This document shows positions 4,261 through 62,608 of a stretch of DNA of 64,000 nt, in pieces. Origin of the DNA: Brachyhypopomus gauderio (lineage: Eukaryota > Chordata > Actinopteri > Gymnotiformes > Hypopomidae). The DNA lies in contig NW_027506914.1 in the NCBI RefSeq assembly GCF_052324685.1, positions 1 through 64,000 of the forward strand, given 5' to 3'. A program made the position numbers and the translations under genes. The notes beneath the pieces are model-generated. The model worked only from the letters and a program-made list of their open reading frames with translations. It was not told where the DNA came from and searched no databases. Within the stretch, counting starts at the first letter, position 1. The number at the start of each line of letters is the position of its first letter.

Positions 4261-5368
4261 ATCCTTACAATAATGGAGCCTTTTTTTTCTAATGTGTATT
4301 ACCTGGCATATTGAATTTATAACCCCTTCCACCCCTTATATGTGCAGGAAGGTACAAAAGAGCTGAATCTGAACAACATGCTCTCACTCTCGATGGATGG
4401 GCCCAGTGTTAATTGGAGGTTTGTTGAACTCTTACAAGAGGAACACAGAGAGCAGTGTGGTGGAGCCCAACTACAAATAATTGGAAGCTGTGACCTTCAC
4501 ACAATGCACAACTCATTCAAGAATGGCTTCACGGTTTGGCAAGTTGAAAAAGTTCTGAAAGCCCTGCACTACCTGTTTCATTGTGCACCTGCAAGGAGGG
4601 AAGACTTTGTGTTAGTGACCAAGTGTGATAGATTTCCTCTGCCATTTTGTGGACATCGCTGGCTGGAAAACCTTCCAGCAGTTGAGAGAGCGATTGAAAT
4701 TTGGCCATATATTGTCTCCTATGTGGATACGGTCAAAGCCAAGAAGCTCCCCAATCCAAGGTCATCATCGTATGACACCATTGCAGAAGCACGCATGGAT
4801 CCCATTATCCTGGCAAAGTTGCACTTCTTCATGAGTATCTCAAGAACATTTCAGCCATTTCTCGCCAAGTACCAGACAGATGCCCCTATGATTCCCTTCT
4901 TAGGCAGAGATTTGGAGGATCTAATCAGGGTAGGCCTAATGACAGCTGAAAATGTATTAAAGGTTTAGTCATTTAAGCATCGTTACTTACAGAGTATATG
5001 AAAGAAAACAAAGCAATGAATTTTCAGCATGTTGATGTTTGTAGAATATATTGTAAATACAGTAATACTTATTCAGATTTTGATTATAATAATTAGTATG
5101 CCTGTGCTTTTCTGTTTTCAGAGCCTTCTCAGGCGGTTTATAAAGCGAGATGTCCAGTTCGATGTTCCCACAGTAAATCTGGTCAAGCTTGATGTGACAG
5201 ACCAAAAGTTTTGGGTCAGTCCAAAGCAAGTAGACATTGGCTTGGGAGCGACAGCTGCCCTCAAGGTACCATTTATTATCTTGGATGACTTCAACAATGT
5301 GCTACATCAGCTGCAAGTCATTTCACTACTTAAGTATTTATTCTAAAACAACCAAGAGATTAGATTAA

Positions 5369-6340
5369 CAGACCCTCCAGAAAGTTGCGATGTTGCGATT
5401 TGCAACTTCAACGCAACTTCAAGCAAACCCCGCGAATTCAGGGCGGTGTTGCAACTTCAGCCAATCACCGCAACTTTCCCGAAAATTTGACCAATCACTG
5501 ATGTCGTCTTGATGTGATGTCGACAAACTCCCGCCTTACTTCCGTATATACATTCAGGAGGAGCAGACTGAAAGCAGCATGAGCGACGAAAATAACGGCA
5601 AAAAGATCGGGAAAAGCAGTATTCCGTACACTACATGAAAACGGGGATAAACTGTCCAGATCCGACCCGCGAATTGATTATCTATGGCCCCCTGGATGAT
5701 ATTTAATTACTATTAGAACCGGCCCACAGGCCACAGCCGCCCGATGGTGTTTTGCACCCACAAACACTACATTCCCCACAATGCAACGGTAGCCCGCGAA
5801 GTCACTGCAGCGCACGCAAGCGGCGAGGGTCTGAGATAAAGTTTATAAGTTTAAACTTTGAACTGAGATTAAGTTTAAAGTCAGAGATAAAATTTATTTA
5901 TCTCTGATCCATATCTATGAGTTACTAGTTCGCTCTGGCGCCAACCACTGGCGATCGATGTCGATATAATACTTAATTTGTGTCCATTTTACAGGCCGCC
6001 CGGTAACAACTTACGTTCGCTAACCCCGCCCCCCCTCCCCGTCAACAATTAATGTTCGCCACCCCCCCCCAAAAGGTTCAAATCTCACTTCAAGCGATCT
6101 TGAAAAGTTGGCAACCCTGAATAGATAGATTAATTAAATAATAGATTAATTAATAGATAATTAAAATGGACTACTAAATAGAGGAAACCATACAACATTT
6201 ACTCCCTATTGTAATGTACTCACAAAAAAGCAAAAACACACCGCAACTTCCATCGCAATTTTTTTTAAAAACACCCGCAACATCAAACATTTTAGCCCGC
6301 AACAATCACAGAAAAGGCCCGCGAAATCCTGGGGGGACTG
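5369..6340. mobile_element. Non-autonomous DNA transposon with 6-bp target duplication
   Basis: Inverted ends read CAGACCCTCCAGAAA (left) and CAGTCCCCCCAGGAT (right, reverse complement), flanked by GATTAA at 5363-5368 and 6341-6346. It lies in intron 3 of the hAT-like gene. The superfamily is not assigned; the duplication length is unusual for hAT. It includes two copies of a short module (TTACGTTCGC-like, 6007-6060) also found in other MITEs of this window. Confidence 0.8.
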
Positions 6341-13185: not shown

Positions 13186-13740
13186 TCAGACAAGTAGGCG
13201 TGTTTCTACTCCAAGGACTCTCTGAACTGTTTTCCCCCCACTGGTTTTTTTATGATGGTGCAAAATCCTTAAATTTATCAGAAGCCTAAATGACAGACAG
13301 AAAATTGTTTTCTTCAATTTGTCTGTATGTTTCCTTTTGTATTTTGTAGTGTTCTTACAATTGCTGTTGTGTTTGAAAAGTGCTATTCATATTTATAGTA
13401 TGTATTATTATAAATACATATATTTCCTAAAATTTACTAGATGTAAATTACAAATAATTCCATATGCATTTCAAAGGCTTCAGTCAAAACACCATTAACA
13501 TTAACCTGTACCTTTGATTTGGCATAACATTTTTATCATTAACCAGTGCTTCTGGTACTCTAAATTACTCCATAACCTTTCATATATGTTCCTTTTGCAC
13601 AAGACCAAAACCTTTCGTCTGGTCCAAGCCCACAATAAAGTAGTTTTTCTCTTCTCCTTCACACAACAGATGCTTTAATGTACACAAGTTATCCCTCATA
13701 TGATGACCCCTAATTGCACACGTCTGTTCCTTGCCAATTA
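13186..13740. other. Unassigned; part shared with 45140-45180
   Basis: No gene seen. A segment near 13403-13440 (TATTATTATAAATACATATA and following) recurs near 45140, so this is probably repeat-derived. Confidence 0.35.
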
Positions 13741-15187
13741 TATTGGGTAATATTATTGCAAGCCTGTTTACAATTCTGTATTACCACTCCCAGAATGTGG
13801 ACATATGTGGGCAAAGAATATTAATTATTATAATTATATATAATAGGGGAAGACTGGGTTTGGTTGTAACACTTTTTGCTTCTGAACCTTTATCTCACTG
13901 AATTCTTGAGCTAGTGTCAGGAACAGCACGTGACCACCTACTTAGTCCTTGCACCTGCCGCTCGTTATCTCCCATAGCCACGTGTACTTAAGCCTTCCCC
14001 TCTCACCACCGGGTTGCGAAGTATTGTTGGCATGCCACTGACTAAGCGTTATCTCCTTGTGATTGCTCTCCTGTGTTCTGACCTCTGCTCTCGTTCCAGA
14101 CCTCGTTCCCAGCCTAGCCCTCTTGTATCTCCAGTCATCTGTCTACCCGGCGTGAACTCGGACCGTCTCGACCTCGGCTATTACACACATACACCGCACA
14201 CACTCCACAGTGTTGCTCGTCTACACGAGTACTCCGCATTCACTTCAAAAAATAAACAGAAAACGAAAATCCGCAATTGGATCCCTGTCTTCCTTGTGGG
14301 AACGTTACAGCTAGACTTCTCAAACTTTTATACAAAGTACACACATTTGTTTACTACAAATGGCACCAATTCAAAACTCAATTCAAATATCACAATAGAC
14401 AAAAGAAGCAACAACAGAGGCCACACCATGCAATATGCTTCAAAAAGAGGTTTTTGAAATAAAATAATGAAAGAACAATCCAGAACAATGTCTCTCTCTC
14501 TGTGACTGACCATAACTCATATCCACTTTCTGTTTTGTTTGAGTGTGTGTAAATTAGTGTACTAGAACAAACTTATTCAAAAATATGTATGTACCTGTGT
14601 AAAGAACATGAATGTCAAATAATAAACAATGTCAATGTGTGTGTGTGTTATATGGCAGATACCATGTGCCTTCGCAACTGATCTGACTGACTTGCCCTTC
14701 TTTGTGACCTCATCAGATGCTTTAAGAAAAAACATTTGTCTTTCATGTCAGTCTTTCTTTTACACTGCCTAGGCATTCTGTAAAATTATTAAATTCAATA
14801 ATGTTTTCTTAGTTGTATGTAAGGTGATGGTTGTAACACTTATAAAAGCTGTGTTACAACCCACCCCACCCCTGTCAGCCATTGTTTAGCTAGCTGTTTT
14901 AGCAAGGTGATTTGAACTTAACAGGGCAAAATGCATCACAATTTACCTACTACAATTAATGTAATAGTTCAATGTAATATAATTCTTATACTATTGCAGA
15001 TAAACCATAAGTACTAAACTAAAAACTCTTTCACCTCATTTTTTTCTCTATGGAATCTGCATGTGTCTGTTTCCATCCTTGATATTCACCATGTGTGATC
15101 AGGGAGTAATTGGGTAAATACCAGAACGATCATATGACTCATATCTGATCCATGATCGGTGGAATTGATGGTGTTACAACTCTCCCT
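13741..15187 (+). repeat. Interspersed repeat R1, copy 1
   Basis: It shares long stretches with 49143-51062 (same strand) and 38684-41770 (opposite strand). It contains GGTTGTAACAC near 13862 and again near 14830, with GTGTTACAAC near 14852 and 15171, suggesting terminal and subterminal inverted repeats of a DNA element. No transposase frame is evident. A solo LTR is inserted at 13915. Confidence 0.75.
13915..14309 (+). mobile_element. Solo LTR, 395 bp
   Basis: It begins TGTCAGGAACAG and ends GGGAACGTTACA, flanked by GCTAG at 13910-13914 and 14310-14314. The paralogous R1 copy near 49437 has the uninterrupted empty site, which confirms the boundaries. AATAAA occurs near 14253. Confidence 0.92.
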
Positions 15188-17603: not shown

Positions 17604-18836
<1,233 letters not shown>

Positions 18837-32183: not shown

Positions 32184-35100
32184 ATGGAGGCTTTAGGCAG
32201 TGCTGAAGCAACTGAAATGGATAATGATGGGGATTACATAAAGACAATAATGGGTTCCCGTAGAGGTAAACTGGGAATGTGCACACGTAAAATGAATGAA
32301 ATTATGACAGTGCGTACTGGGAATGGAGAAGCCAAAGAAGTGAAGTTGCTTATGGACTCCTTTTGTGCTGCTTTGAATGAATTTAATCAAGTGCATGATT
32401 TGGTACAAATGTCATTAGACACTGCAGAAAAGGAGCATGACCAGACAGAGTGGTTTGAACCAAAAATGGCCCATTTCAAGGAGTTTTTGACAGAAACTGA
32501 AACATGGCTGAGAGCTAAATTTGAGAAACAAAACGGAGGTGAAGATGAGATACAACTGGATGAAAACATTGATAATATAACACCGTTTGACAGTGTTTCG
32601 GTTAGTTTAAAGAGACAGTCAGAAGACTCAGTAACATCATCAAAGTCCTCAATAGCCTCTTCTGCAATATCGGCAAGAATGAAGGCTGAAGCAAGAAAAG
32701 CAGTTTTAATGGCACGTGCAGCTGCACTCTCTAAGAAGCATGACTTAGAAATGAAAGAAGCCCAATTAAAAACTGATGAGATAAGAATAAAAATGATGAA
32801 GGAAAAGCTTCGGGTGGAGACAGATATTGCAGCCTCAATTGCTGAAATAAGAGTGTACGAGAGCTTTGAATCTCCCTCATCGGAAGCCAAACAAAAGGAT
32901 GGCATGAATGAGTATTATGATGAAGCACAGAAGTACCTGCATTCCTCAATTGATACTGGTGGTCATAAACATACAGCTGATTATGCCTTAATACAAACTG
33001 TTCCTAAAACACCATTGCAAAGAACTGTTCAACTTTTGCAACCTCCCCAGTTAATAATTGAGTCTGAGCCTCAAGCTGTAGCAGAGCTAGGTAACACAGG
33101 TGTGAGCTCCTCTCAGGGTCAAGTGATCCTTAATGCAATGCAGCAACAGCAACATTTGACTGAGGTTCTATTGCAGCAGCAAAATCTGTCATTGCTTCCA
33201 ACAAAAGCGATCCCTGTGTTTGATGGAGACCCATTATGTTTTCTCTCCTTTATGAGGGCCTTTGAACATAGTATTGAAACTAGAACACAAAGTAATAAGG
33301 AAAGGCTTTATTATTTGGAGCAGTTCACTGCTGGTCAGCCAAGAGAGCTTGTTTGCAGTTGTTTACATATGGATGCTACAACTGGATATGCAGAGGCTAA
33401 ACGACTACTGAAAGAGAATTTTGGAGATGAAATAAGGATTACAAATGCCTATATGGATAGAGCTCTGCATTGGGCTAACATAAAACCTGAAGATTCTAAA
33501 GCACTGCACGCGTACACATTGTTTCTGAGAGGATGCTGCAATGTAATGCAAGAATTACGATACCTTAAAGAGTTGGACAGTGCTGCAAATCTTAGGATAG
33601 TCATCTCAAAATTGCCATACAAAGTAAAGGATAAATGGAGAGCAGTAGCTTATGATATCTCAGATAAAACGAAGCAAAGAGCAGGGTTTGATAATCTTGT
33701 TGTGTTTCTTGAGAGGCAGGTTCGAATGAGTTCTGATCCTCTTTTTGGCGATATCTTGGTGCCAGCATCAAGCCGAAAATCTGTTACATATGAGATTAAA
33801 CTCCCCTTGAGGTCAAAGAGTAGTAGAACCAGCTTTGCTACCACAGTGGTACCAGTTACTAAGTATGTGTCTGGCACTGCTAACGACAAAACAAAGCAGG
33901 CACGAACATTATCTTCCTCATGTTTTTACTGTTCATGTGATCATGTGTTAGCCAGCTGCAACCACTTCAAATCTCTGGATCATAGGAACAAAGTGCAGTT
34001 CTTGAAACATAATGGAATCTGTTTTGGATGCTTCTCCAAAGGCCACCTGAGCAAGGACTGCAGGAAAAGGATGACCTGTGAGATCTGCCATTACAGACAC
34101 CCTACTCTACTGCATATTTCAGAAAAGGTCATGCAGAAACGATCTGTAGATAACTCAAGTGATCCAAATTCTGAACAGCCAACATTAGAGGGACAGCCAG
34201 TTAATAGTGCATTTGTTTCTCTCAGATCTGGTCGTCATAATGGGGCCAGTAAAGACTGCATACTTGCAATAGTACCAGTACAGGTCAAGGTAGCAAGCAG
34301 TAACCAGTTTCTTGTAACATATGCCTTTTTGGATCCTGGAAGTTCAGCAACCTTTTGCACTGAAGGCTTGATGAGAAAACTACATGCGAAGGGAACGAAA
34401 ACTGAAATATTGCAGAGAACAATGGCTCAAGAGAAACCTGTCACCACTTACAGGGTGTTAGATTTAGAAGTGGGGGACAAAGATGGGAAGAATTTTATTC
34501 AATTGCCTTGTGTTTACACCCAGGACGTAATTCCTGTATCAAAGGAGAATGTCATATCTTCAAAGGATCTTGAGAAATGGCCATATCTCAGAAATGTGGA
34601 CATCAAAGAAATCGATGCTGATGTGGAACTCTTGATCGGAGTTAACACTCCAAAGGCCATGGAACCATGGGAAATCATAAACAGCATAGGGAACGGACCC
34701 TACGCAGTGAGAACCCTGCTTGGATGGATAGTGAATGGTCCACTTGGTAGTATGGGGGATGCAACAAATCATGTCGTAACCACCAACAGAATATCAGTGT
34801 CGGAAATTGAAGAACTCCTGATGAAACTATACAACCAAGAGTTCCCAGAAACACACTATACTGAGAAGAGAGAAATGTCACTAGATGATAAAAAATTCAT
34901 GAAGATTCTGACAGAACAAGTGACTTATGAGAACAGTCATTATTATCTGCCACTTCCATTTCGTAATGATAATGTGATGATGCCTAATAACAGAGATATG
35001 GCAATCCAGCGTGCTGCGAGTCTTGCAAAAAGGTTAAAAGGGGATAAAAGCTTCCGAGCAGAGTATAAGCAATTCATGGACAAAATGTTGGAACAGGACT

Positions 35101-38100
35101 ATGCTGAGAAGATACCATCGGACCAGGTACACGTTGTTGAGGGTAAAACATGGTACATACCACATCATGGTGTTTACCACAGACGCAAAGGCACTTTGCG
35201 TGTTGTGTTTGATTGTACCTCATCGTTTCAAAACACCTCCCTCAATAAAGAGTTACTCCAGGGTCCTGATCTGACAAACAATCTACTAGGTGTGCTCATG
35301 CGATTCCGTCAAGGACACATAGCTTTAATGGCGGATATCCAAGCTATGTTTCATCAGGTGAGAGTCCACAGAAAACATGTGGACTTTCTTAGATTTTTGT
35401 GGTGGCCAGATGGAGATTTTAAGAAACAGCCTGAAGATTATCGTATGAAGGTGCATCTTTTTGGTGCTGTTTCATCACCCAGTTGTGCAAATTTTGCTTT
35501 GCAAAAAACTGCTCAAGACAACCAGCACAAGTATGACAAAGAGATAATTGAGACAATTCAAAACAATTTCTATGTCGATGACTGCCTTAAGACTGCAGAA
35601 ACAGAAATGCATGCTATCAGATTACACAAAGGCCTCTCTGATTTGTGTGCCACAGGAGGATTCAAGCTTACGAAATGGGTCAGTAATAGCAATAAAGTGC
35701 TAGAAGTCATCCCTGAAAAGGAAAGAGCAGACATGGTAAAGGATTTGGAGTTGGACAGGAAAGACCCTCCAATTGAAAGAGTGCTCGGGATTCAGTGGAA
35801 CTTGGAGGATGACACATTCGGATTTAAAGTGTCTGAGAACAGCAAGCCCCTCACTAGAAGAGGGATTTTATCCACTGTAAGTTCCATATATGACCCTTTA
35901 GGATTTCTTGCACCTGTCATTCTGAAAGGCAAGCAGATTTTGCAGGCTCTCTGCAAGTCAGGTTGTGGTTGGGATCAAGTTGTTTCTGATGTTATGCTCA
36001 ATCAATGGAAGACATGGCTACAAGACACTGAACATCTCTCTGGTCTGAGAATCGATAGATGTATGAAACCAAAAGACATTGGCACGGTCATATCAGTCCA
36101 GCTGCATCACTTCTGTGATGCCAGTGAAGTAGGTTATGGTACCGTTAGTTACATCAGGTTCGTCAGTGATAGTAATGTACACGTTAGCTTCGTCATGGGA
36201 AAGGCGAGAGTAGCCCCATTTAAACAAATGACCATCCCTAGGCTCGAACTTCAAGCAGCAACGCTTGCTGCACGGATGGATAAAATGCTTAGAGTAGAAC
36301 TTCAAATTAATCTGGAACCTTCTGTATTATGGACTGATAGCCAGTCAGTTCTGAAGTACATTAATAATGAACAAACAAGATTTTCAACCTTTGTGACCAA
36401 CCGACTTACTGTCATCAGAGATCTTACAACCAAAGAACAATGGAGATATGTAGACTCAGCAAACAATCCGGCTGATGCTGCATCAAGGGGTGTAAGAGCA
36501 GCCTCTCTAATGTCCAAACACTGGTGGACAGGCCCAGACTTCTTACGAAGGAAAGAAACACATTGGCCGATTAGTAGCAAACTAATGTCTACTGATTTGA
36601 AAACCCTTGAAGTGAGAAATGTTCAGGTCCATTGGACAACCGTAACTGATAATCCTACAAGCAACTTCCTAGAATATTATTCCCAGTGGAGTCACTTAAA
36701 AAGGGCAGTGGCATGGTTTCTACGACTGAAAGATATCCTTAAAGCAAAGGCTCATGGAAAGCATGCTGTGAAGAACAACAATGCCCAGAATGTGGGATCC
36801 CAGTGTTTGTCTGTAGATGAACTGGAAAGAGCAGAAAAGGCTGTGATCTCTTATGTACAGAACTCGAGTTTCCATGAGGAAGTGGAAGCCTTACAGAAAG
36901 GTAAACAGGTTAAACTCTCTAGTAGCATCTCATCACTGGATCCGATTCTTGAGGCTGGGATTCTAAGGGTAGGGGGCAGAATTAATAGAATGGCCATGCC
37001 CGTAAGCCAACAGCATCCAGCCATATTACCCAAGAAGTCCCATATCTCTAGACTAATCATGAGGCACATCCACCAGACAATAGGTCACTCTGGGAGGAAT
37101 CATGTTCTATCAAAATTGAGACAGCATTATTGGATTCCAAGTGCAAATGCCTTAGCACGCAGGATTATTACGGAATGCGTCCTCTGTAGACGTCTTCAAG
37201 GGAAACCGGGAGAACAGAAGATGGCAGATCTCCCTCCAGAACGAATCACCCCAGACTTACCACCTTTCACCCACGTAGGTATTGATTATTTTGGACCAAT
37301 AGAAGTCAAGAAAGGTCGTGGAACTGCAAAACGATATGGCGTGATCTTTACTTGTCTTGTGTCACGTGCCATCCATCTTGAAGTAGCAACTTCTTTAGAC
37401 ACAGATGCTTGCATTAATGCCCTGCGGCGATTTATCTGCAGAAGAGGGCCAGTTGACACTATAAGAACGGATCAAGGTACAAATTTCATTGGAAGTCATA
37501 GAGAACTAGAAAACAGCTTGAAAAATGTTGATCATGAGAAAATCCATGGAACATTAACAAAAGAGGGAATCAAGTGGATGTTCAATCCACCCTTTGCACC
37601 TCACCATGGAGGTGTGTGGGAACGCCTAATCAAGTCACTGAAGACAATTCTTCATTCACTCTTTAGAGAGCAAATTCTTGATGATGATGGATTATTAACA
37701 GCACTCTGCGAAGTTGAAACAATAATGAACGATCGTCCACTAACAACTGTATCAGACGATCCACTTGATCTGGAACCTCTGACACCTAATCATTTACTAA
37801 GAATGAAAGTTCAACCAGTCATACCACCTGGAATCTTTCAGAGCACTGACTTGTATGTACGAAGAAGATGGAGACAGGTACAGTACATCACAGACTTATT
37901 CTGGAAACGGTGGATAAGGGAGTATCTTCCCATTATGCAAGAGAGATCCAAATGGAACCTGATCAAAAGGAACTTCCAGCCAAATGACTTAGTGGTCATT
38001 GTTGATGACAAGGCACCAAGAAACTCATGGCTGTTAGGGAGAATTCTGAAGACCTTTCCAGATAAACAAGGTCTTGTCCGAGCGGCTTTGATTAAGACCA

Positions 38101-38165
38101 AGAACACTGTCCTGCAAAGACCAATCAGTAAGCTCTGTTTGCTGATGGAAACATCACAGCAGTGA
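32184..38165 (+). CDS. BEL/Pao Gag-Pol polyprotein, intact
   Basis: One uninterrupted frame of 1993 aa from the first good ATG after the 5' LTR. Domains in order: a coiled-coil and gag-like region (FDGDPLCFLSFMRAFE near residue 350) and two CCHC-like knuckles (near 580 and 613). An aspartic protease has FLDPGSSATF at Asp717, with Pro instead of Ser/Thr after Asp as in many BEL elements. Reverse transcriptase follows with YVDD at 1130-1133, then RNase H (CDASEVGYG, Asp1312). The integrase has an HHCC finger from about 1625 and catalytic Asp1701, Asp1763 and Glu1813, the last two 49 residues apart. It makes the element's DNA copy from RNA in cytoplasmic particles and inserts it in the nucleus. 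No lesion seen, so potentially active. Confidence 0.96.
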   Translation: MEALGSAEATEMDNDGDYIKTIMGSRRGKLGMCTRKMNEIMTVRTGNGEAKEVKLLMDSFCAALNEFNQVHDLVQMSLDTAEKEHDQTEWFEPKMAHFKEFLTETETWLRAKFEKQNGGEDEIQLDENIDNITPFDSVSVSLKRQSEDSVTSSKSSIASSAISARMKAEARKAVLMARAAALSKKHDLEMKEAQLKTDEIRIKMMKEKLRVETDIAASIAEIRVYESFESPSSEAKQKDGMNEYYDEAQKYLHSSIDTGGHKHTADYALIQTVPKTPLQRTVQLLQPPQLIIESEPQAVAELGNTGVSSSQGQVILNAMQQQQHLTEVLLQQQNLSLLPTKAIPVFDGDPLCFLSFMRAFEHSIETRTQSNKERLYYLEQFTAGQPRELVCSCLHMDATTGYAEAKRLLKENFGDEIRITNAYMDRALHWANIKPEDSKALHAYTLFLRGCCNVMQELRYLKELDSAANLRIVISKLPYKVKDKWRAVAYDISDKTKQRAGFDNLVVFLERQVRMSSDPLFGDILVPASSRKSVTYEIKLPLRSKSSRTSFATTVVPVTKYVSGTANDKTKQARTLSSSCFYCSCDHVLASCNHFKSLDHRNKVQFLKHNGICFGCFSKGHLSKDCRKRMTCEICHYRHPTLLHISEKVMQKRSVDNSSDPNSEQPTLEGQPVNSAFVSLRSGRHNGASKDCILAIVPVQVKVASSNQFLVTYAFLDPGSSATFCTEGLMRKLHAKGTKTEILQRTMAQEKPVTTYRVLDLEVGDKDGKNFIQLPCVYTQDVIPVSKENVISSKDLEKWPYLRNVDIKEIDADVELLIGVNTPKAMEPWEIINSIGNGPYAVRTLLGWIVNGPLGSMGDATNHVVTTNRISVSEIEELLMKLYNQEFPETHYTEKREMSLDDKKFMKILTEQVTYENSHYYLPLPFRNDNVMMPNNRDMAIQRAASLAKRLKGDKSFRAEYKQFMDKMLEQDYAEKIPSDQVHVVEGKTWYIPHHGVYHRRKGTLRVVFDCTSSFQNTSLNKELLQGPDLTNNLLGVLMRFRQGHIALMADIQAMFHQVRVHRKHVDFLRFLWWPDGDFKKQPEDYRMKVHLFGAVSSPSCANFALQKTAQDNQHKYDKEIIETIQNNFYVDDCLKTAETEMHAIRLHKGLSDLCATGGFKLTKWVSNSNKVLEVIPEKERADMVKDLELDRKDPPIERVLGIQWNLEDDTFGFKVSENSKPLTRRGILSTVSSIYDPLGFLAPVILKGKQILQALCKSGCGWDQVVSDVMLNQWKTWLQDTEHLSGLRIDRCMKPKDIGTVISVQLHHFCDASEVGYGTVSYIRFVSDSNVHVSFVMGKARVAPFKQMTIPRLELQAATLAARMDKMLRVELQINLEPSVLWTDSQSVLKYINNEQTRFSTFVTNRLTVIRDLTTKEQWRYVDSANNPADAASRGVRAASLMSKHWWTGPDFLRRKETHWPISSKLMSTDLKTLEVRNVQVHWTTVTDNPTSNFLEYYSQWSHLKRAVAWFLRLKDILKAKAHGKHAVKNNNAQNVGSQCLSVDELERAEKAVISYVQNSSFHEEVEALQKGKQVKLSSSISSLDPILEAGILRVGGRINRMAMPVSQQHPAILPKKSHISRLIMRHIHQTIGHSGRNHVLSKLRQHYWIPSANALARRIITECVLCRRLQGKPGEQKMADLPPERITPDLPPFTHVGIDYFGPIEVKKGRGTAKRYGVIFTCLVSRAIHLEVATSLDTDACINALRRFICRRGPVDTIRTDQGTNFIGSHRELENSLKNVDHEKIHGTLTKEGIKWMFNPPFAPHHGGVWERLIKSLKTILHSLFREQILDDDGLLTALCEVETIMNDRPLTTVSDDPLDLEPLTPNHLLRMKVQPVIPPGIFQSTDLYVRRRWRQVQYITDLFWKRWIREYLPIMQERSKWNLIKRNFQPNDLVVIVDDKAPRNSWLLGRILKTFPDKQGLVRAALIKTKNTVLQRPISKLCLLMETSQQ

Positions 38166-42277: not shown

Positions 42278-42712
<435 letters not shown>

Positions 42713-42743
42713 CTAAGAGGGCTGGAGATATAGCTAAATAAGC

Positions 42744-47869: not shown

Positions 47870-48700
47870 TTTGCCTGTTGAAAAATGTTTTCACTTGAAA
47901 TTACTGACAGATCCATAAGAAAATATTGCTTTATTCATTTAAGCATTAAATAATATAGCCTACACTGTGTTAGGTCTTGGTTCAATAGGCTATGTGCAAT
48001 CATTTCAATATGTTTTAATAAACATTGAACCAGTCCGGCCCTCCGGCTTGTAGAAAATTTGGTTTTTTGGCCCTCGGTGTATTTGACTTTGACATCCCTG
48101 ATCTAGTTCATCCTGATTTCTTATCAGAACAGTATCATCATCTGTATATGTTGACATTTTCCAATTATCTCCATGTATTTTAACTCCACTCAGCCTGGCA
48201 CCATTTTTAATCTAATGTAACAAGGGACCAACCGCTATTACATATAAAGCCACTGTTACGACTACTCTAGGCAATAGCCCTAACAGAGAATGAGTATTGA
48301 GAGACTGTGATAGATATGATGAAATGGTAAATGTTTTTATTCAAAGTATGGCCAAGGGATGTAGCTCCAGGACACAACCCAATGCTCAAAACAATAAACA
48401 AAATGTCTCTAACCAAAATAATATCGACTACCTTACCTGAAGTATGTTTAAAGAATTGAAAGTAAAACACAATAACCTATAACTACCTATACAAAACAAA
48501 GATAACCAAAATAGCATCTTAGTCCTTTCTTCCCGTCTGGGCCGGATTAACAAGCACAACTATTTACACAGATATTTACACTTATACACACTATATTTAT
48601 ATACATATACACATACAATATCTACATCAGCTACCAAACCAAAAAGGGGCAATTCCAGACTCAAGTTCAGGGACAATATAATTCAAATTCAAACAAACCA
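47870..48700. other. Unassigned repeats
   Basis: 48030-48102 resembles the end of a hAT MITE (minus strand CAGGGATGTCAAAGTC). The rest is AT-rich without a gene. Confidence 0.35.
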
Positions 48701-52240: not shown

Positions 52241-52974
52241 AACCTAGAATGGCCACACATCAAGAGAGCGCCGCCGTACAGATTACGGGAGAAACATAGA
52301 GATAAACATCAGGAGGAGACAAAAAAATATGACCACAGATTATTCTCACAAACAGGACAACAGTCTGTGTGCATGCAAAAAATCTCCATCGCACATACAG
52401 CATTGATAACACAGACAGTAAGCAGTGAGAGGCGTGATCCATTCAGAGAGGGAGGGGGGGGCAGAGGCCTGGCACACAGTTTTTGTGTCAAAGTTCACGG
52501 TGGAAGGCGAGAGCCATCTCTGACAGTCTCTGTGTGGGGGTAGGAGCAGGCAACCAAGACGACGACCTTCTGGGAGAAATTTGTTTGGGCGCCAATGCAG
52601 ATAATCATGAATGAAGAATTTAGCAGGGAGCTCGTCCTTGAGTGTTTGAGCACACGAACTCCCCTTAAGTCAGCGGTCATATTTAAAGATCAAGTCAAAT
52701 TTAGTGAATCCTGGTGAGTTTTAAAAGGTATGAGGCTCTCTTGTTTTTATCAGATTCACTATCGTAAAAACACAAGCCGCGTGCGAAGTTACAAAATTCG
52801 AGAGGTGCACGACCTTGCGAATCGCCAGCACGCGATGCTCACGCGCACGGGTGGAGCCACCGCGATTACATCATTTTTGGCGCGCGAACCCTCGATTATA
52901 TACATATATTATATTCTCTCACTGGCGCTCATCAGCGCTGGATGGATGACGGTGGTGTAGTCATGTTTGCGGAG

Positions 52975-53165
52975 TTCATACACCTTTACAAGGTGCAATT
53001 CAAGCACTTGTACGTCACTTTCAAGGTCCATTTCAATATTTCCCAGCACGTTAAACTTAATAAAGTTAAATATTTATACATATGCTCGAAATGATTCGAA
53101 ATAATTCGCTTTTTTATCACATTATTTAATGGTGGTTTATTTTCAAAATGCCCAATCTTAACGTC
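52975..53165 (+). repeat. Interspersed repeat R2, copy 2
   Basis: GTTCATACACCTTTACAAGG onward matches 47232-47455. A related right-hand part with TTCCAGCACTTTTCAAACGT lies near 53312. Confidence 0.8.
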
Positions 53166-53635
53166 TTCACGTTCTCTCATGTTTCGTCCTGGAATTACAA
53201 GAGGCTCGTATTTGTTAACATAATACAAGAGAACTGTTCAGTTAGACAGCTATTCGTTGTGAAACGAAGTAGTCACAATTTCAAGCATTTTCAAGTATTT
53301 TTGCCTAAATTCCAGCACTTTTCAAACGTGGAACACAATGCAACATTAAAATTCGTCAGGTTCATTCCCCTGTTTTTGAGGGGTGTTTCTTTCTACTAAC
53401 ACATCGTTTCGGAGACACGGTCACTCGAGAAAGTATAAGGAGGGAGGTAACTTTTCTACGTATTGTCCAAAAATCTGAAGGCGGACCCGCAAGTCAATCA
53501 AATGACACCGCCGTCATCCATCCAGTGCTGATGAGCGCCAGTGAAAGAATCATATTTCAGCCACAAAACAGATAGCACGCGTATGTGTGGTTTATTATGA
53601 TTTGACGGAATTGAAATTTGACGGAATGATTTGAT

Positions 53636-53824
53636 GTCCCTGATAACGTTCTCCAGGAACACTTTGAGCACACCACGGGTCTCCTCGTAAATCAGACCGG
53701 AGATACGCTTGACACCGCCACGACGAGCCAGATGGCGAATGGCGGGTTTAGTAATGCCCTGGATGTTGTCACGGAGAACCTTGCAATGACGCTTAGCGCC
53801 TCCTTTCCCAAGACCTTTACCACC
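53636..53824 (-). pseudogene. Histone H4 fragment next to a LINE (residues 7-69)
   Basis: 189 bp match H4 codons 7-69 (Met counted as 1), with two substitutions visible: Arg20 to Cys and Arg37 to His. The 3' part of H4, including stop and stem-loop, is missing at 53636. The 5' part is replaced at 53825 by a LINE 3' tail. No start codon is in the window. It is older than the H4 at 17604, as its coding sequence has begun to decay. Confidence 0.93.
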
Positions 53825-54712
53825 ATTTATTTTATTTATTTATTTAGAAATTTCAAAAGACTACATACATAATACACAAACACAAAAACATACAATCATA
53901 TCCTTATTACAAAAGCATCAAAGATCCAGATTGTCCCAATAGGCTAGAGTGTTGAAAGGGGTGTTTCCCATTCCTCACTTTTTTAAAATGTATTTTAACA
54001 GTCTTTAAAATCTGTTCACTAGGAATGTAGATGTGGTCAATTGTCATTCGTGTCCTAGTCTTCCACAATTTTGATTTCACAATATTAAGAATAAACCAAA
54101 AAAAATCTTTTTGCTGCTTAGAGAGATTTTCTTCAAAAATTCCATAACATATTGCATTACTATTCATATTAATATTAACTCCCATATCATAAACTTTTTT
54201 CCAAACATCTTTAGATCGATTACATTTGAAAAGAAAATGATCCAAAGTCTCCCGTTCATGACAACAAGGCATAGGACATTCAGTGGTTTTAACATAACAG
54301 CTCCACCTAACGACAACTCGTACAGGGAGCCTCCTTACTGCAATCAGCCACTGAATATCCCGAACCTCCTCAGACATATTTGCACTAAAAATGTTTTGTA
54401 TACACAAGCCATTATTACCACTATCCAAATTCCTAAAATTAACTTTATCCCCATACGCTTCTTCACAGATCAGGCCATAAATACTTTTATTAGATAAATT
54501 CACCCAATCAATATTCAATTGTTCATATTTGTTAATAAAGTCACTTTTTCCCTTTAATTTTTTCTTTCCAGTTCGAGATGTTACCCACCCACTCAACCTG
54601 CCTATTAATTCCATTTGCTATAATCTTGCAGAAGGCTATTTTAAGTTTCAAAGATACATCTAAAACTCCCAAACCCCCTAGGTGCCTACCTTTAAAAAGT
54701 AACTCTCTTTTA
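53825..54712 (-). mobile_element. Tx1/L1-clade LINE inserted in histone H4 (copy II)
   Basis: The 3' end, an (AAAT)n tail, abuts H4 codon 7. The minus-strand frame to 53907 carries NIDWVNLSNKSIYG, WLIAVRRLPVRVVVRWSCY, a CCHC knuckle and KLWKTRTRM, co-linear with copy I but only about 45% alike by eye. Further upstream (54710-54600) a shifted frame gives GGLGVLDVSLKLKIAFCK, so a frameshift lies near 54560. It is cut at 54713 by the EnSpm element; the 5' remainder would lie past the LTR element at the right edge, outside the window. Confidence 0.92.
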
Positions 54713-55259
54713 CACTGCAAAAAAGGCTAGTTGAAATATAAGAAAAAAATACTTAATTCAAGCATAAAGTTAATCAATACTAGTCAAATTATCTGTCCAT
54801 GCAGCAAGATAATTTTACTTGACAAGAATTCTCAAAATAAGTTTGTTCAAGTCTTGAAATTAGATTGCTCTGACAGGCTGCAAGAGCTTAAAATAAGTCA
54901 AAAGTACTAATATTTAGATAAAATTACTTGAAAACAGATGTGCTAGACCACAGTAACAAGTCTACTATTCTGAATATGAGCAAATAATGCTTATTTAGTT
55001 TTTGGAACTCTTAATATAGGTTTTCTAATGTAAGTGTAAAATACTTAGTACTAGGGTATTATGACTACTTGAAACAAGTTGTCTCATCTTAAAACAGGTA
55101 CTCTTAAAAACCACATTTTACTTGAAACTAGGTTTTAATCCAGGATCTTACATCTTAAAACAGGAAACCCATAAGTAATTCACCACCAAAACAAGTGAAA
55201 ATTCTGTCAACATTTATTGACCGTACTGTAGACCATCAAACCACTTTTAAACACAGGGG

Positions 55260-55338
55260 CTTAATACACACTAAACAACTGAAGTACACAGCAACTGACT
55301 TAATACACACTAAACAACTGAAGTACACAGCAACTGAC
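55260..55338. repeat. 39-bp tandem duplication
   Basis: CTTAATACACACTAAACAAC plus 19 bp repeated twice exactly, near the left end of the EnSpm element. Confidence 0.95.
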
Positions 55339-55475
55339 AGTGAACAACTGCACATCATCACTTTCCCAGTATACTGAGCAAACAGCAAGGTGAGGGAGGG
55401 AGGTAGGAGTGAGTAGAGAGAAAGAATGTGTGAATGAATGAGTGAGAAAGAGAGAAGAGGGAAAGAAAAAGATTG

Positions 55476-55485
<10 letters not shown>

Positions 55486-55521
<36 letters not shown>
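55486..55521. repeat. (AG)n microsatellite
   Basis: About 18 AG units. Confidence 0.95.
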
Positions 55522-55523
<2 letters not shown>

Positions 55524-55600
55524 TGGAGGCATTTAAATACACAGTGAACAACTGCATTTGAACATGACTTTCCCCACTAGTAAGCAAACAAAAAATGCAA

Positions 55601-58232
55601 CTACTTCTCAATAAATGATTTCCACTCTGCCATTGCCCTCTTATATGCACCTGTAGCATCTCGATCATGGATTGTGTCACACAGTACCTCAGTTTGAATG
55701 ACCGAGAGGAGGGTTGCAACACATTTTGGGTACGTCAGGTGCATCGTATAGTAGTATGCCATCAACATCAACATCCCATCAAAGAACTCCTCCTTTGGTA
55801 TGGTGCTTACAGGTACGTTTCCCACGGCAAGGATGCAGACCTTTCCATCAAAGAGTAACACAGGACTGGTGAGAGGGCGCTTTTCCAAGTAAAGTGACGG
55901 ATCCTCCATTGCCTTTAATTTGAAAGAAAAAGAAAAAATTTATAAATGTCTTTTTCTAAGACTAAGAAAAATCAATACACCAACTGAAATGCACAATAAC
56001 CTCACCTGAAGGACATGCAATAGTGCTTCACTGGGATTCCCGAGCCGTTTTGGTGGTGAAGTTGGTGAGGGAAAGAGTGATGGGAGACCAGTCAAACAGG
56101 CAATGGTGAAATCCGCTGGAAGAGGCATAATTAGATAAATTAACATCCGTGTATCAGAGGTCCTGCAGACACAAATAGGAAGCTGAAGGATTACAGTTTT
56201 ACAGAGTTCAGATTTGGAATAGAACTGCAACATACCTTCACGCATATTCAAGGGTATAGGTGGTTTCAGGACTTTCTTCCACACACCATAGAACTGTACA
56301 TTGGCACAGAAGGTTTCCCATCTTTTCTTTGTTTCATCAATGTATTTGGGGTTGGTGCCACCCAAGATTCGACGCAGCTCATCCATTGCCTAGGATAAAA
56401 TTGTGCATTTAGTGCAGCTGATATCATTACACAGAAACAAGCACACAAAAGAGTGAGATATGAAACTTACATTTTTAGGGTCTTTGAAACATGGATATGC
56501 TTCAAATATCTGCGCAATCCTGTCTTCCTCCTTCAACACACTTGAGTCGATGAAGGCCCGCCTTGCATCAAACTCAAGGTCCAAAATTTGAGCAACATCA
56601 CTTTGGTTAGGTTTTGAGTTGGGCTTGCTGTACATGTTGGAGAGTGTTTTGTAATGCCTTGCCTGCATTTTCAGGCTGTCCTGATGTTCTGAAATATAAC
56701 AGTAGAGTTCAGAAAGTTTAATTATTTCTAAATATATTTTCTTGATCAGCCAAAGAACAGGGAAAACACATAAATAAAACTCACTGGTAAATATTCAAAG
56801 TGCCAGTGTAAAAGGTAAGCTCTTTTAAATTTTATATTTTATACACGCACACAATAAAAACAATACTGCATGCAGTATTACCTGGATTTAAGTCATCATT
56901 GCTGACATCGCTCTCTGGAAGAATAACAGTTGAAGCAGTTGAAGCTGAAGAACTTGCAGTACCTTCTTCTTCTGTACTCGTTTCAAAGAGTGATCTCTTT
57001 GCGGACCCTCTTTGTGGCTTTGGGCCCTGCCTCTTTCTTGGAGACTTAATATTTTGCAGTCGCTTATACATTTTAGAGTAAATCGTCAGCTGTGGCAAAG
57101 GAAAGTTGATAAGTTAAGCTGTCATGTCATCCACCAAGCCCTTTAATGTTTTAGATGCAAAATAACTTACATATGGCAGATCTGAAGTGTCACGTAGCAT
57201 AGGGTAATAGTCAACGATCTTCTGTGACACTGCTCTCAGCTCATGTTTTGAGGGGTATCTTTCCTCTTTTCCCAGGGGACTAGCACGCAGAATGGCAACC
57301 ATGCTGGTGATTGTGTTTCTGATGAGCCTGCAACTTAGCTCCTTTGACATCTTGCAAACTTTTTCCTTTCCATTGCGGAGCAAATCAAAATACTGGCTGC
57401 GCACCATGTCCAACTCTGAGTCTGTGTACACTACATACTCTGGTGGGTCTGGCAGTTTCACCGTTTTGGCTGTAATTTCATGAACAGGGGTAGAGGTCTG
57501 AGGCTGGCTTGTCAACACTGCACAGGTAGCGGACACATTCCCACTTCCTCGATCTTGATCAGGATCACCATCCTATAAGAATTACAAAAACACACACAAA
57601 ACATTCTTTAAAATAAATTAATTTTATGCTTTCCATAAACTTCCTGAGTTCCTCCACAGATGCATTACCTTTGGGCCAATCATGTCCCATAATTTCTTCC
57701 TCTTCAGAAAATTCTCTGGTCCAGGAAAGAGGTCTTTCAAATCTTCCCGACTTAGGGTTTTCAGAACCTCCTCATCAATATTTGCAGCTTTAAAAATATC
57801 AGTAACATGCCTGGCATCAGTATCACATTACACATGTTTTGGTACGAATTCTTCATTGAAACATAGCCTACAACTGTTCATATCTATGAATATTTGCTAG
57901 CAGCATGACCATGCTAACTGAACAAAAATGGCACACATTTTAAAATACATACAAAACGAGATGAATACACGAAGAATTCTTACACATTGTCCATCCTGAT
58001 GAGCAAATAACCCCTAACTTAACAGGTCTTTCTTAGAAGTGCCAGCTATTTAATTTAGGTTTATCCTACATATTTCTGAAATGCTAACGTTAGCCTAGCT
58101 TGTGAACTTTATGTTGCTCCATCTGCGCATGATTCCATTAATGTACCAACTGACACCGTGCTTTGAAATAGCTTAGCTTAAACACAACTTACCCCGTAGC
58201 ACCGACAGTGTAGTCTCATCTAAATCATCCAT
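55601..58232 (-). CDS. EnSpm-associated second protein, SAMD3-like, eight exons
   Basis: Exons on the minus strand by frame and GT-AG sites: 58232-58193, 57810-57669, 57572-57171, 57089-56882, 56687-56471, 56390-56236, 56115-56006 and 55912-55601 (stop TAG). The second exon looks like a SAM domain (DIFKAANIDEEVLKTLSRED). The third has RLIRNTITSMVAILRAS and RYPSKHELRAVSQKIVDYYPML, typical of fish proteins annotated SAMD3-like. The fourth is basic, then Ser/Thr-rich. The phase between exons 1 and 2 does not fit by one base as I read it; the others do. Such proteins accompany fish EnSpm transposases; their role is unknown. Confidence 0.65.
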
Positions 58233-58820
58233 ACCATCCAAGAAAGTGGCTTTTCTTTCTGTCTCTGTTCTCAAATGTAAGCAGTTATCTGAGGACAAAA
58301 CATATCGATAAGTTTGCTAATGATACCTAGCAAAATCATTTAGCTTTGTAATGTAGACTTGCTGACTATGGCTAGCTTTCGATTATAACTTTAAGCTCCT
58401 CAGTCTCCAAGCTAGGAGAGCAGGTAAAATATTAAATAATATCGGAACAAATGTATACAATATACTACACCAAAGATATCGTGAACATAATGTTAAATCC
58501 GTGCTTACCCCGACGTGCACTTTTCAGGCTTCCGTTGAACACTGCTGCTTTTTATCTGAAAAAGGCGGCAATTCTCTTCAACGTTGAACTGACGCATCTG
58601 TTTGACGTGCGGGTGAGCGGAGAGCAGGTCATAGAGCAGAGGTGTGAGCAGCGTGCGCAAATATTTTCTCATATATAAAATTGTACGACATAAGTTGTTG
58701 TAAAAATTCATATTCATATTTCTGGCAATTCATATTTTTGGTTAGCAAATAGGAAGCACAGGTGTAACCAATCCCACAGACAAGCACCAAAACGAGCCTA
58801 CTAAATACTACTGGAGTGTC

Positions 58821-61800
58821 ATGGCGGTGTGGCGGTGCATGATCTGTTTCGTTTTTGTTGCGTTAAGTTTAAAATCGCTCCTCAGCCACATAAATGTCAC
58901 GCATGGCCGTAGTCAGGATTTCTGGGTTCTTTGTGGAATTGATGGTTGTGAACAAGATTTTAGAGTTTACAACTCATTTTATCGCCATCTTAAACGAACA
59001 CACCCTTTGTATTTGGCGACCGGATGCCCACCAAGCGGATGGAGGACAACACCTACATCAGCTGTACTTGGGTCAGAGAACTTTGGTGCATCTATCTTTT
59101 CTGAAGCCACTACTCCTGCAAGAACATACTTTGTAGAGGAACAGTCACACGGTAGTCAAATTGAAACTTGTATGGAAACAACTCCTGATTCCCATTCTAT
59201 TCAGGTAAGTTTTGATTTGGCAAATTGCAAAGTTAATTTTAATCCATGAGGCATATTTATGATGCTTGATTAAAATTACATGGTTTAGCCTACATGATTT
59301 CTGTATTTTGAAGTGAAGACAGTCAAAATGTATTCTATAAAATGTATTGTAGGTTATGAAACTTAAGTTGAAATTTAATATGTATTATGGATTTGGATAT
59401 GTGCATTTGTTATGACTATAATAATAATAATAATAATAATAATAAGTTAAACTTATATAGCACCTTTCTAGTACCCAAGGACACTTTACAAAATTCCTAT
59501 TTCAATTCAATTTCAATGTTTATTTCAAATATGGAAAACTAAAAACAAAACAAATGATAAAACAGATAACAAAACAATTTATCAAAATTCCTATGAGAAG
59601 AGAAAAAAATAATAAATGAATAAATACGAAAGACTACTGAGATATTCAATTTTATTTATGAAAGGAAAATAATGGCGCTGGAACATCTGTAACCAAACCG
59701 GATATTGGCAAGTCTGCGGCAGCATTTGCAATCAGTGTCCGGGAGGAATGCCATTTGTCACAGGTCAGTTTTGCATAAAAAATGCATGCAGATGGAGTGA
59801 ATGTAATAATAATTGATAAACTGACACCTTAATTGTAAAGTAGGCTCATTCTAATGCATCAGAATGTGTTGCATTTAATTCTGTGAGGTCATGACATTAT
59901 ATTAGTAAAAAATTAAGACCAATTGATGACTTTTCACAGAGGACCGTCAACAGAGTCATTGGGGGGGTGCAACAGTACCAAGCAACTCTCTTGGATACAT
60001 TAAGGATAAGAATGAGAAGAATTTTTGACAGACATCCAGAGACAACCACTCAGCTTCAAAATGAGGTTCTGAATACTTTTGATACTTTCAGAGATCCTTT
60101 CTCAACCACAGCATATGGACAGAATAGGACTATTTGTGAACTCTTCAGTCCAGTCTGCCCAGAGGAAGTTGTTGTCTCTCAGAAGATTTGTTGGGTGAAA
60201 CAAGGTAGTTCAAAGGTTATGGCCATAAGAAACAAATGTTTTTACTATGTACCACTAATTGAAAGTCTAAAGCAGCTACTGACCAATTCTAGAATTTTCT
60301 CCATGTTGAACACTGTACCACAGAGAAGCAGAGAGGGATTCTTGTATGACTTTTCAGATGGTGCTCTATTTACATCTCATCCTTTATATTCTGTGAGGCC
60401 TAATGCTTTGCAGATCATTTTGTACTCCGACGATATTGAAATATGTAACCCTCTAGGGCCCCATACTTCTTCAAATAAGTTGTTAATGGTTTACTACAGT
60501 TTAGGTAATATTGATCCAAAATTTAGGTCCAAGTTAGCAGCAATACGACTCCTTGCTATTGCAAAATCTGTTGATGTTTCTAAATGGGGTATAGATGTTA
60601 TTTTACAAAGAATTATAAAAGATCTTAATCTACTTTATAATGGTGTCAAGGTTGAAACACCACATGGTGAAATGAACTTGTTTGGAGCTGTGATAGCAGT
60701 ATGTGGAGATACACTTGCTCAACATGAGCTTGCTGGCTTTAAAGAAGGGGTTGGCTTTGCCTATAGCAAGTGCAGACACTGTGAATGCACCTTTGAGGAT
60801 ATGCAAATACATTTTGATGAGAATAATTTTGTCAGAAGAACACTAGAAAGGCACATTAGGCAATGTCTTGAAATAGACAAGGCAAGCACAGATACTTTAA
60901 AGGCCTCCCTCAAAACTACTTACGGAATTAATAGAAGAAGCAGACTTATTGATGTTCCTGCATTTGACCTAATCAGACAAACTCCACAGGACATAATGCA
61001 TGTAATTTTTGAAGGTGTTGCACCAATGGAAATCAAGCTTGTGTTAAAAAGTCTTATACTGTCAGGTAATCTAGAGTTAGATGTGTTCAATTCAGCCATT
61101 CAGAGTTTTCCTTACTCGCCTCTTGATATACGTGATAAACCTTGCCCTGTTAGTGTCAGCACTTTGACAGCAAGTGACAACAAATTAAAACAATCATGTG
61201 GGCAAATGTTAATACTGTTAAAAGTATTACCTTTTATTCTGTATGACTTGGACAATGAGTATGTTACATTCATTGTTAAGCTGATTGAAATTGTACAGAT
61301 TGTTCTTGCTCCTATTATTTCTTTACAGACAGTAATACGGCTTAAACTTATGATTGAAGAACACCTTAGTCAGTTCAAACATTTATTTCCCGAAACTAAT
61401 GTAATACCCAAGCAACATTACATGTTGCATTTGCCCAGTCAAATTCAATCCCTTGGTCCTTTAATAAGAACTATGTGCCTGCGATTTGAGGCCAAGCACA
61501 GTTATTTCAAACAGTGGGCTCCAAAATTGAATTTTAAAAATGTGTGCAAGTCACTTGCCAAACATAATCAATTTCTTGAATGTTGTCAGAACGAAATTGG
61601 CATTGAACATTCCATTTTCGCAACCGAGAGGGAATTGGGGCCTGTTACTGATATTTCAAATACTGATTATGTTAAGGCCAAATTTAGAGATTTTTTAAAT
61701 ATGGACATCAGTCAATCTGTTGTCTCTGTGAAGTGGCTAATTCTCAATGGAAATAAATACATCAGTGGCAGGTCTCTAATTATTGCAGATGTGAATGATA

Positions 61801-62075
61801 CTTTGCCTGTGTTTGGACTGGTTAAAGACATCTTTTTAGTAGATTCTTCTTTTGTTGCTTTTGAATATCAGCGTTATGAAACATTGCATTTTGATAACAA
61901 TTTGTTGGCATATGAAGTTACAGTTCCTACTATTGCCCAGGCAACAGAATTGGTGCATGAGCTTTTAGATCAAACCTCATATTTTCCAATAAATTTTAAG
62001 GATAGTGTGTTTGTGCCAATAAAATATACTCTCTGTGATGTTATTGTACATAGGAACGGCCCCAGGTACGTATAA
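58821..62075 (+). CDS. EnSpm/CACTA transposase, three exons
   Basis: Exons 58821-59204, 59665-59763 and 59940-62075, all phase 0, giving 872 aa without a stop. Two zinc fingers lie at the N-terminus: C-x2-C with H-x4-H, then C-x4-C-x12-H-x4-H (CGIDGC...HLKRTH). The large exon has QTPQDIMHVIFEGVAPMEIK (the D-x-MH...EGV...E motif of the superfamily), KQHYMLHLPSQIQSLGPL and RFEAKHSYFK. It would cut and rejoin the CACTG ends. It is divergent from the SAMD3-like gene, with about 590 bp between start codons. It appears intact, so the element may be recently active. Confidence 0.82.
59418..59640. repeat. (AAT)n and short fish repeat in transposase intron 1
   Basis: About eight AAT units at 59421-59445, followed by TATATAGCACCTTTCTAG, a common fish repeat motif, then A-rich sequence. 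Confidence 0.75.
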
Positions 62076-62608
62076 TGAGCTCTGAATGAGATGTCCTCCT
62101 ATACTGTACATTAGTTTGCTGTAGCTAGCTATGTATTGGCCAGTTGTAGGCTGTTTGTTTCACTGATCCAATTCCATTGTTGAAAAGTGGCCAAAGCCAA
62201 TCTTTTGTTGGTTTGCTTACTTTGTTCATCTAATTTCAATGATGAAATGGCATTTACCAATAAAAATTATTGTGAATTCTTCTCGAATTAAGAAATCAAA
62301 CTTAAATCAAGAAATGTAATGTATGAATCAAACTCAGTTTATGTGGCTAAATCTTGAAATTAGTTTTATGTTGTGGAATAAAAGAGTATAAATTGATTCC
62401 TAAGGTATTTTTACCAATAATTTACTAAATTTAAGATTTCTTGACTAAGTAAGATAAGATGGACACATTCATGATGAATTTTAAGATTATGCTATGGGAC
62501 CAAATGTAAGAAACTAGTGAATAACACTTGAAACAAGATAATCAATATAAAATTTCCTAATGTAAGATTTTAAATCTTGGTAAGAAGACAAAAATTTGCA
62601 GTGTAGTC

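Follow-up and report, generated by a model that had tools for sequence, protein, structure and literature searches.

Two LINE families joined to the start of histone H4 genes in Brachyhypopomus gauderio: evidence for a target-specific lineage of the L1/Tx1 group

Histone genes occur in many copies, show strong conservation and are expressed at high levels during S phase. The 64,000 nucleotides analysed here (the window; C70:1-64000 of the host's own 796.5-Mb genome assembly) hold only two histone H4 copies at E<1e-3, and each is interrupted by a different LINE, in the same orientation relative to H4. The question raised by this locus is how two distinct elements came to join the same gene at nearly the same codons. 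We report that these interruptions, copies I and II, are very probably the 3' ends of two families of a LINE lineage aimed at the DNA coding for MSGRGK, the start common to the H4 and H2A proteins. The data are best explained by a target-specific LINE lineage, within the L1/Tx1 group, living as a parasite of histone genes.

Copy I occupies 17607-18836 on the minus strand with both of its joints present. The H4 start codon and following sequence to nucleotide 27 (18810..18836) lie upstream of a 5'-truncated family I LINE (17903..18809) with an ORF2 C-terminus of 258 aa (18032..18805), and the 3' part of the H4 gene follows (17607..17902). Read in the sense direction, ATGTCTGGAAGAGGTAAGGGTGGTAAA passes into the truncated LINE, which ends in AATAAAGATTCA and is followed by GTAAGGGTGGTAAAGGTCTTGGG. 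A 14-nt duplication, GTAAGGGTGGTAAA, borders the insertion, with one copy in the 3' part of H4 (17889-17902) and the other in the upstream part (18810-18823). A full-length element (L039:1415-6118) matches copy I at its 3' end, with 98.7% identity over 913 nt.

Copy II is preserved on one side only of its target. The H4 fragment that forms its target half (53636..53825, minus strand, codons about 6-68) is identical to the H4 of copy I at 188/192 nt (98%), and gave 87% in tblastn over residues 15-75. It ends at about codon 68, with the same cut in the C133 and C17 copies of this locus. Beside this broken end, at 52913-53550, two 46-nt arms of 93% complementarity form an inverted repeat with a separation of 546 nt. 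The family II LINE (53826..54712, minus strand) consists of an ORF2 C-terminus and an A-rich, AAAT-like tail, which in the sense direction stand directly upstream of the H4 fragment. One frame of the C-terminus covers 53910..54617, and the remainder (54547-54708) is in another; the longer frame piece carries zf-RVT PF13966 (E=1.3e-06) above the Pfam cut-off. The broken 5' end of the LINE adjoins a CACTA/EnSpm-like DNA transposon (54713..62603, no strand assigned) with the ends CACTGCAAA... and ...TTTGCAGTG. ORFs are found on both strands of the transposon, and that at 59967-62075 (702 aa) matches PF02992 Transposase_21 (tnp2) weakly, below the cut-off (E=0.0066). As the transposon starts at 54713, ordinary 5' truncation of the LINE at 54712 was rejected. 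The remainder of the LINE was not found within the window beyond the far side of the transposon; the C17 copy of the LINE, which is without the transposon, reaches about aa 708 in the numbering of family I ORF2.

A preliminary description of this locus had placed a second, clearly different LINE in the same orientation in another H4 copy, with a protein co-linear with, and about 45% alike to, that of the first. The different LINE, its orientation and the co-linearity hold; the measured similarity is lower, with 94/241 aa identical (39%). The unlike 3' tails seen at that stage extend to unlike 3' UTRs and 5' ends, and together with the low protein identity these differences uphold its view that two insertions, and not one duplicated event, are present. 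The contrary account is that array expansion multiplied a single ancient LINE-in-H4 unit, flanks included, and that the LINEs drifted apart later. Segmental copying is real: C133 and C17 carry further copies of both I and II with unchanged ends, and on C17 three copies of family I are found at 7.8-kb spacing. As an origin for both LINEs it is nevertheless highly improbable: the H4 flanks in the window are 98% identical against 39% for the LINE proteins, the 5' truncation points and tails differ and the duplications are separate, family I is also found in H2A and, with other flanks, on C10 and C20, and gene conversion of H4 would have had to spare the LINEs and rebuild each duplication. Within this one assembly C70, C133 and C17 share flanks as duplicates or alleles, not separable as alleles versus paralogues, and places sharing both flanks were counted as one event.

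Copy II was described as joining H4 at nucleotide 19. This is so in the window, where AAAT is joined to GGTGGTAAAGG, but it is probably not the original position. The joint of the C17 sister copy reads A(n)G followed by AAATGGTGG (AAATGGTGGTAAAGG), which fits entry at about nucleotide 15. The sequences suggest that the original joint of copy II was of this kind and resembled that of family III, a later G-to-T change and slippage of the A-rich tail having probably produced its present form. With an original family II joint near nucleotide 15, the joints of families I-III in H4 would lie no more than about 3 nt apart. Three LINE families would then be joined to H4 at codons 5-6 (nucleotides 13-16), the position of family II being the one deduced from its sister copy.

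The distribution of these elements was followed through the 796.5-Mb genome by searching the 3' end of family I as a pattern with up to 2 mismatches. Of 28 matches, 17 exact ones and one with a single mismatch (C133:175615) lie inside histone arrays on C17, C70, C133, C20 and C10. The other 10 lie outside the arrays, one (on C4) with one mismatch and nine with two, and a reversed control gave 2. When 700-1000 nt around each of these 10 were read, only 20-32 nt were found in common with the element end and no ORF2 match was present, so they are chance matches; the C4 match, which shares 22 nt only, was likewise rejected as a family I copy outside the arrays. All 18 true family I 3' ends found (18/18) are thus in histone arrays, and young copies elsewhere are absent. 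Seven of them are joined to H4 at codons 5-6 and six to H2A at codons 5-6. Three ends, from two insertions, are in the H4 3' flank at GGCAAAGTCRGACA, one lies at an H4-type duplication between tandem units, and one (C70:160856) at a rearranged antisense H4. At least ten family I insertions can be separated, all in histone arrays. Protein matches to family I at >=84% identity and family III loci at >=80% identity are also confined to the arrays, as are, to histone regions, the endonuclease-domain matches at >=35% identity among the 121 of 529 candidates scored. A scan of viral contigs with ORF2 gave no match.

The other families repeat this pattern, with exceptions among the older copies. In 6/6 of the family III places found with a C-terminus, the joint to H4 reads A(n)G followed by (A/G)AAGGGTGGTAAAGG. 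The window copy of family II and its counterparts on C133 and C17 all adjoin H4; a further copy in the C20 histone region (L004) abuts a dispersed repeat and not a histone gene. That repeat is about 130 nt long and was found 39 times more when 40 of the 537 candidates were scored; because the joint falls at its edge, the original target of this copy is unreadable. Our censuses placed no H4 or H2A on the stretches that hold two diverged C1 copies (40-48% identity) and short LINE fragments on C44 and at C20:9.64 Mb, so confinement of the wider clade is not absolute. Old LINE copies at C1:42.69 and 43.00 Mb (L034, L036, L038), though closely related to the histone families, have no histone gene within 1.5 kb.

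Could ordinary L1-type insertion at random, followed by selection that spared only the copies in redundant histone genes, yield the same picture? Its appeal is that the best solved-structure match of the family I protein is the LINE-1 ORF2 protein and that the insertions carry L1-like hallmarks. Such a process would leave intergenic copies across the genome, of which the histone arrays span roughly 0.2% as estimated from the places found; 0/18 family I ends are outside the arrays, and the insertions meet at single nucleotides. We therefore give this account practically no credence. Chance as the cause of the two H4 joints was rejected on the same genome-wide joints at one point.

The family I insertions enter H4 at GGAAGAGG^TAAGGGTGGTAAA and H2A at GGCAGAGG^CAAGACCGGTGGT, and a look-alike, CACGG^CAAAGTCRGACA, is used in the H4 3' flank. 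These share the core GG^NAAR when aligned on the 3' joint. Comparison of the two flanks in 10 family I insertions gave duplications of 14, 14, 11, 14, 9, 3, 4, 13, 13 and 13 nt, so that 8/10 have 9-14 nt and the remaining two 3-4 nt; an eleventh, on C10, is flanked by H2A at its 3' end alone and does not enter this comparison. Extended to 12 insertions, the comparison gave 0 nt for a family III insertion on C20 and 14 nt for a UBE2W cDNA considered below. One family I insertion in H2A (L024/L037, C17:1429k) carries a 5' inversion of the twin-priming type. The insertions accordingly display the hallmarks of target-primed reverse transcription, namely 5' truncation, target-site duplication, 5' inversion and a fixed or poly(A) 3' end, and independent copies have their 3' ends at a single shared nucleotide within a multicopy gene, as expected of a target-specific non-LTR retrotransposon. 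The conserved target choice through divergence proposed at the outset is borne out by family I, family III and the window copy of family II, which meet H4 at codons 5-6. An early worry, that a LINE consensus might itself end in H4-like sequence, was answered by insertions flanked at either end by H4 or H2A, and that candidate was rejected.

A census of H4 genes was drawn from 51 matches to a site pattern, less 4 that are clearly non-H4 and with two copy II places beyond the mismatch limit added; the resulting 49 sites miss more diverged H4 copies. At the LINE point 18/49 sites are interrupted, by family I (7), family II (3), family III (6) and UBE2W (2), a count of places and not of 18 events, as many are duplicates or alleles of one event. 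The start codon was in place in all of the 31 other sites read (31/31). Among H2A genes at >=96% identity, 3/34 start at residue 4 owing to a LINE.

The GG^NAAR core is short and must recur very often elsewhere in the genome, which implies a further component of specificity. Tethering by a host factor at histone loci, for example the histone locus body, might combine with a weak endonuclease motif to set the site. The confinement to arrays despite so short a core speaks for this, as do the two family I insertions at the look-alike motif in the H4 3' flank. We regard tethering as possible though doubtful, since insertions meet H4 and H2A at the same codon and none of the family I 3' ends (0/18) is joined to H3, H2B or H1, which lie in the same arrays; tethered elements, TRE5-A among them, are described in PMC3706591 as inserting near and not at a fixed point.

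Evidence on what chooses the nucleotide comes from a sequence that is not a LINE. At two places (L040 and L006) a processed cDNA, about 1.5 kb long and with the coding part of UBE2W uninterrupted, ends in poly(A) joined to GTAAGGGTGGTAAAGG at the H4 site; its best PDB match is UBE2W (E=1.6e-69). In L040 it lies on the minus strand at about 4396-5956, the H4 start codon precedes it, and both copies of the same 14-nt duplication were read. Uninterrupted coding region, poly(A) and target-site duplication are the features of a processed pseudogene, and the two places may represent one event. An intron-bearing UBE2W parent was not clearly found in the genome, where three pieces on C19 match at 81-89%. 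Because a non-LINE RNA sits at the same nucleotide, the site appears to be set by the enzyme; this suggests that the endonuclease, and not pairing of the element RNA, chooses it.

An apparently intact 4.7-kb family I element (L039) allowed the proteins to be characterised. Its ORF1 (421 aa, from GTG) has ZCCHC3-like RNA-binding domains and CCHC knuckles. ORF2 (1096 aa) contains Exo_endo_phos PF03372 (E=3e-12), RVT_1 PF00078 and, below the Pfam cut-off, zf-RVT, and its LINE-1 ORF2 match has E=3.6e-75. Inspection of the endonuclease domain, as recommended in the preliminary description, showed an AP-type enzyme aligning over its whole length with the L1 endonuclease, including the LNI, QE, GDFN, RID and SDH segments, which we take to have a catalytic role. 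An AP-endonuclease, a reverse transcriptase and a C-terminal zinc-binding region in ORF2, with a CCHC ORF1, are the features of the L1/Tx1 group, and the presence of PF03372 separates the element from the R2 superclade, which has a restriction-like and no AP endonuclease.

The best-sampled relatives in this genome are Keno elements in U2 snRNA genes, whose ORF2 is about 25% identical to that of family I. A tree of the C-terminal part of ORF2 was built from 14 rows aligned to the family I protein, with no named Tx1 or fish L1 references among them. The expectation that H4-flanked copies form one clade held in part: families I, II and III together with the two old C1 copies stand apart from Keno, and families I-III may or may not exclude the C1 copies (AU p = 0.08 for the histone families as one clade). 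Within the window, short reverse transcriptase fragments at 13464-13774 (39-62% identical to histone LINE ORF2) and 48101-48259 (48%), both on the minus strand, are possible decayed relatives between the histone genes. The window also holds the N-terminal half of a LINE ORF2 (2-1582, minus strand), about 24% identical to Keno and to family I, and an uninterrupted 1993-aa Bel/Pao-type polyprotein frame (32184-38165, plus strand; Peptidase_A17, rve, weak RVT_1).

The Keno-related elements served as an internal comparison. They occur on C26, C113, C395 and C334, many with long open ORF2 frames and tandem-like spacing. Three were read (L043-L045, one each on C26, C395 and C334); all lie in U2 snRNA genes as identified by Rfam and are joined to TCTGTTCTTATCAGTTTAAT, and two of the three loci also hold U5. 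The published Keno target is this same U2 sequence (PMC6136364), so target-specific relatives behave as published in the same assembly. Keno, of the Tx1 clade, resembles the histone LINEs in its AP-endonuclease, CCHC ORF1 and precise entry into a multicopy gene, but its target is an RNA gene; the histone LINEs join H4 or H2A and not TCTGTTCTTATCAGTTTAAT.

Several other systems share single features with this lineage. R1, TRAS and SART, of the R1 clade, likewise combine an AP-type endonuclease with a fixed target, in their case rDNA and telomeric repeats; these elements, set apart here by description and not by sequence, belong to another clade and have other targets. L1 insertion shows a loose AT-rich preference only, to which the fixed histone target of the present lineage stands in contrast, although vertebrate L1 resembles it in ORF2 domain order, 5' inversion and poly(A) retrocopies made in trans. 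R2 likewise enters a redundant gene array, the 28S rRNA genes, by target priming, but is carried in a pre-rRNA transcript, whereas an RNA polymerase II histone transcript is proposed here. PMC4640811 gives R2 a restriction-like endonuclease, unlike the AP type of the histone LINEs, assigns an AP-type endonuclease with a fixed target to the R1 clade, and names Tx1 and R1 as AP-endonuclease groups with fixed targets. In fish and others, Dada DNA transposons have multicopy small RNA genes as targets (PMC3706591), but move by a DDE transposase, an unrelated mechanism; the word "histone" is absent from the main text of that paper. Among the open-access papers searched, covered through titles and the starts of abstracts, with Repbase and subscription papers outside, no LINE targeting a histone or other protein-coding gene family was found. 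The associations that did appear are not LINEs: ERV1/Gypsy pieces in fish histone genes (PMC6136364) and a Gypsy-H3 association in turtle (a title cited by PMC10651099).

How such elements might be transcribed is indicated by their 5' ends. A full-length insert on C133 (L046, 170817-175639) lies in H4 between copies of GTAAGGGTGGTAAA, and begins with an H2A leader of 31 nt of 5' UTR, the ATG and the first H2A codons, after which LINE sequence follows. The first 57 nt of this leader are identical to the H2A gene at C10:18601143, beyond which it resembles C70-type H2A. The identity begins 36 nt downstream of TATATT in the C10 gene, and before it one A only is common. The L039 insert on C70, bordered by a 13-nt H4 duplication, has an H2A leader identical over 61 nt to the intact H2A gene of the window (42281..42664, minus strand), a gene of the second target kind. 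Upstream of this gene is a promoter stretch (42665..42732, minus strand) with a TATA-like TATATCT at 42732-42726; the leader starts at 42698, 34 nt below it, and no base upstream is shared. Judged by these sequences, the two leaders are probably cDNAs of transcripts begun at two different H2A genes. They might instead have arisen by recombination between histone genes, as array DNA does recombine and the L046 leader leaves the C10 gene after 57 nt for a C70-type sequence. We consider this unlikely, because both leaders start 34-36 nt below a TATA-like box with no promoter sequence ahead, are bordered by H4 target-site duplications and derive from two different H2A genes.

Under the preferred reading of a histone-targeting LINE lineage, the following cycle can be proposed. 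The AP-type endonuclease of ORF2 would nick the bottom strand at GG^NAAR, the freed 3' end would prime reverse transcription of the element RNA, and a second cut about 13-14 nt further on would yield the duplication. A LINE lying sense-wise in H2A would be transcribed from the promoter of the histone gene, in the manner of R2 in rRNA genes, and its RNA may then be copied into fresh H4 and H2A genes, the redundancy of the gene array presumably tolerating the damage.

We think it likely, on the whole, that this LINE lineage is specialised on protein-coding histone genes. Its endonuclease would read the MSGRGK codons, one specificity serving two gene families, and its H2A copies would be expressed from an S-phase histone promoter, with a possible coupling of retrotransposition to replication; the target would be common to three or more diverged families, and the same machinery would deliver host mRNA there. 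A protein-coding multigene family would thereby become a new niche for target-specific LINEs, with a possible route to cell-cycle-coupled expression and with a cost to the host that is visible in the H4 sites counted as interrupted (18/49, in places and not events). The lineage would also provide an AP-endonuclease whose defined target lies in a conserved gene, together with a test case for the shift in target choice between Keno-like and histone-targeting relatives.
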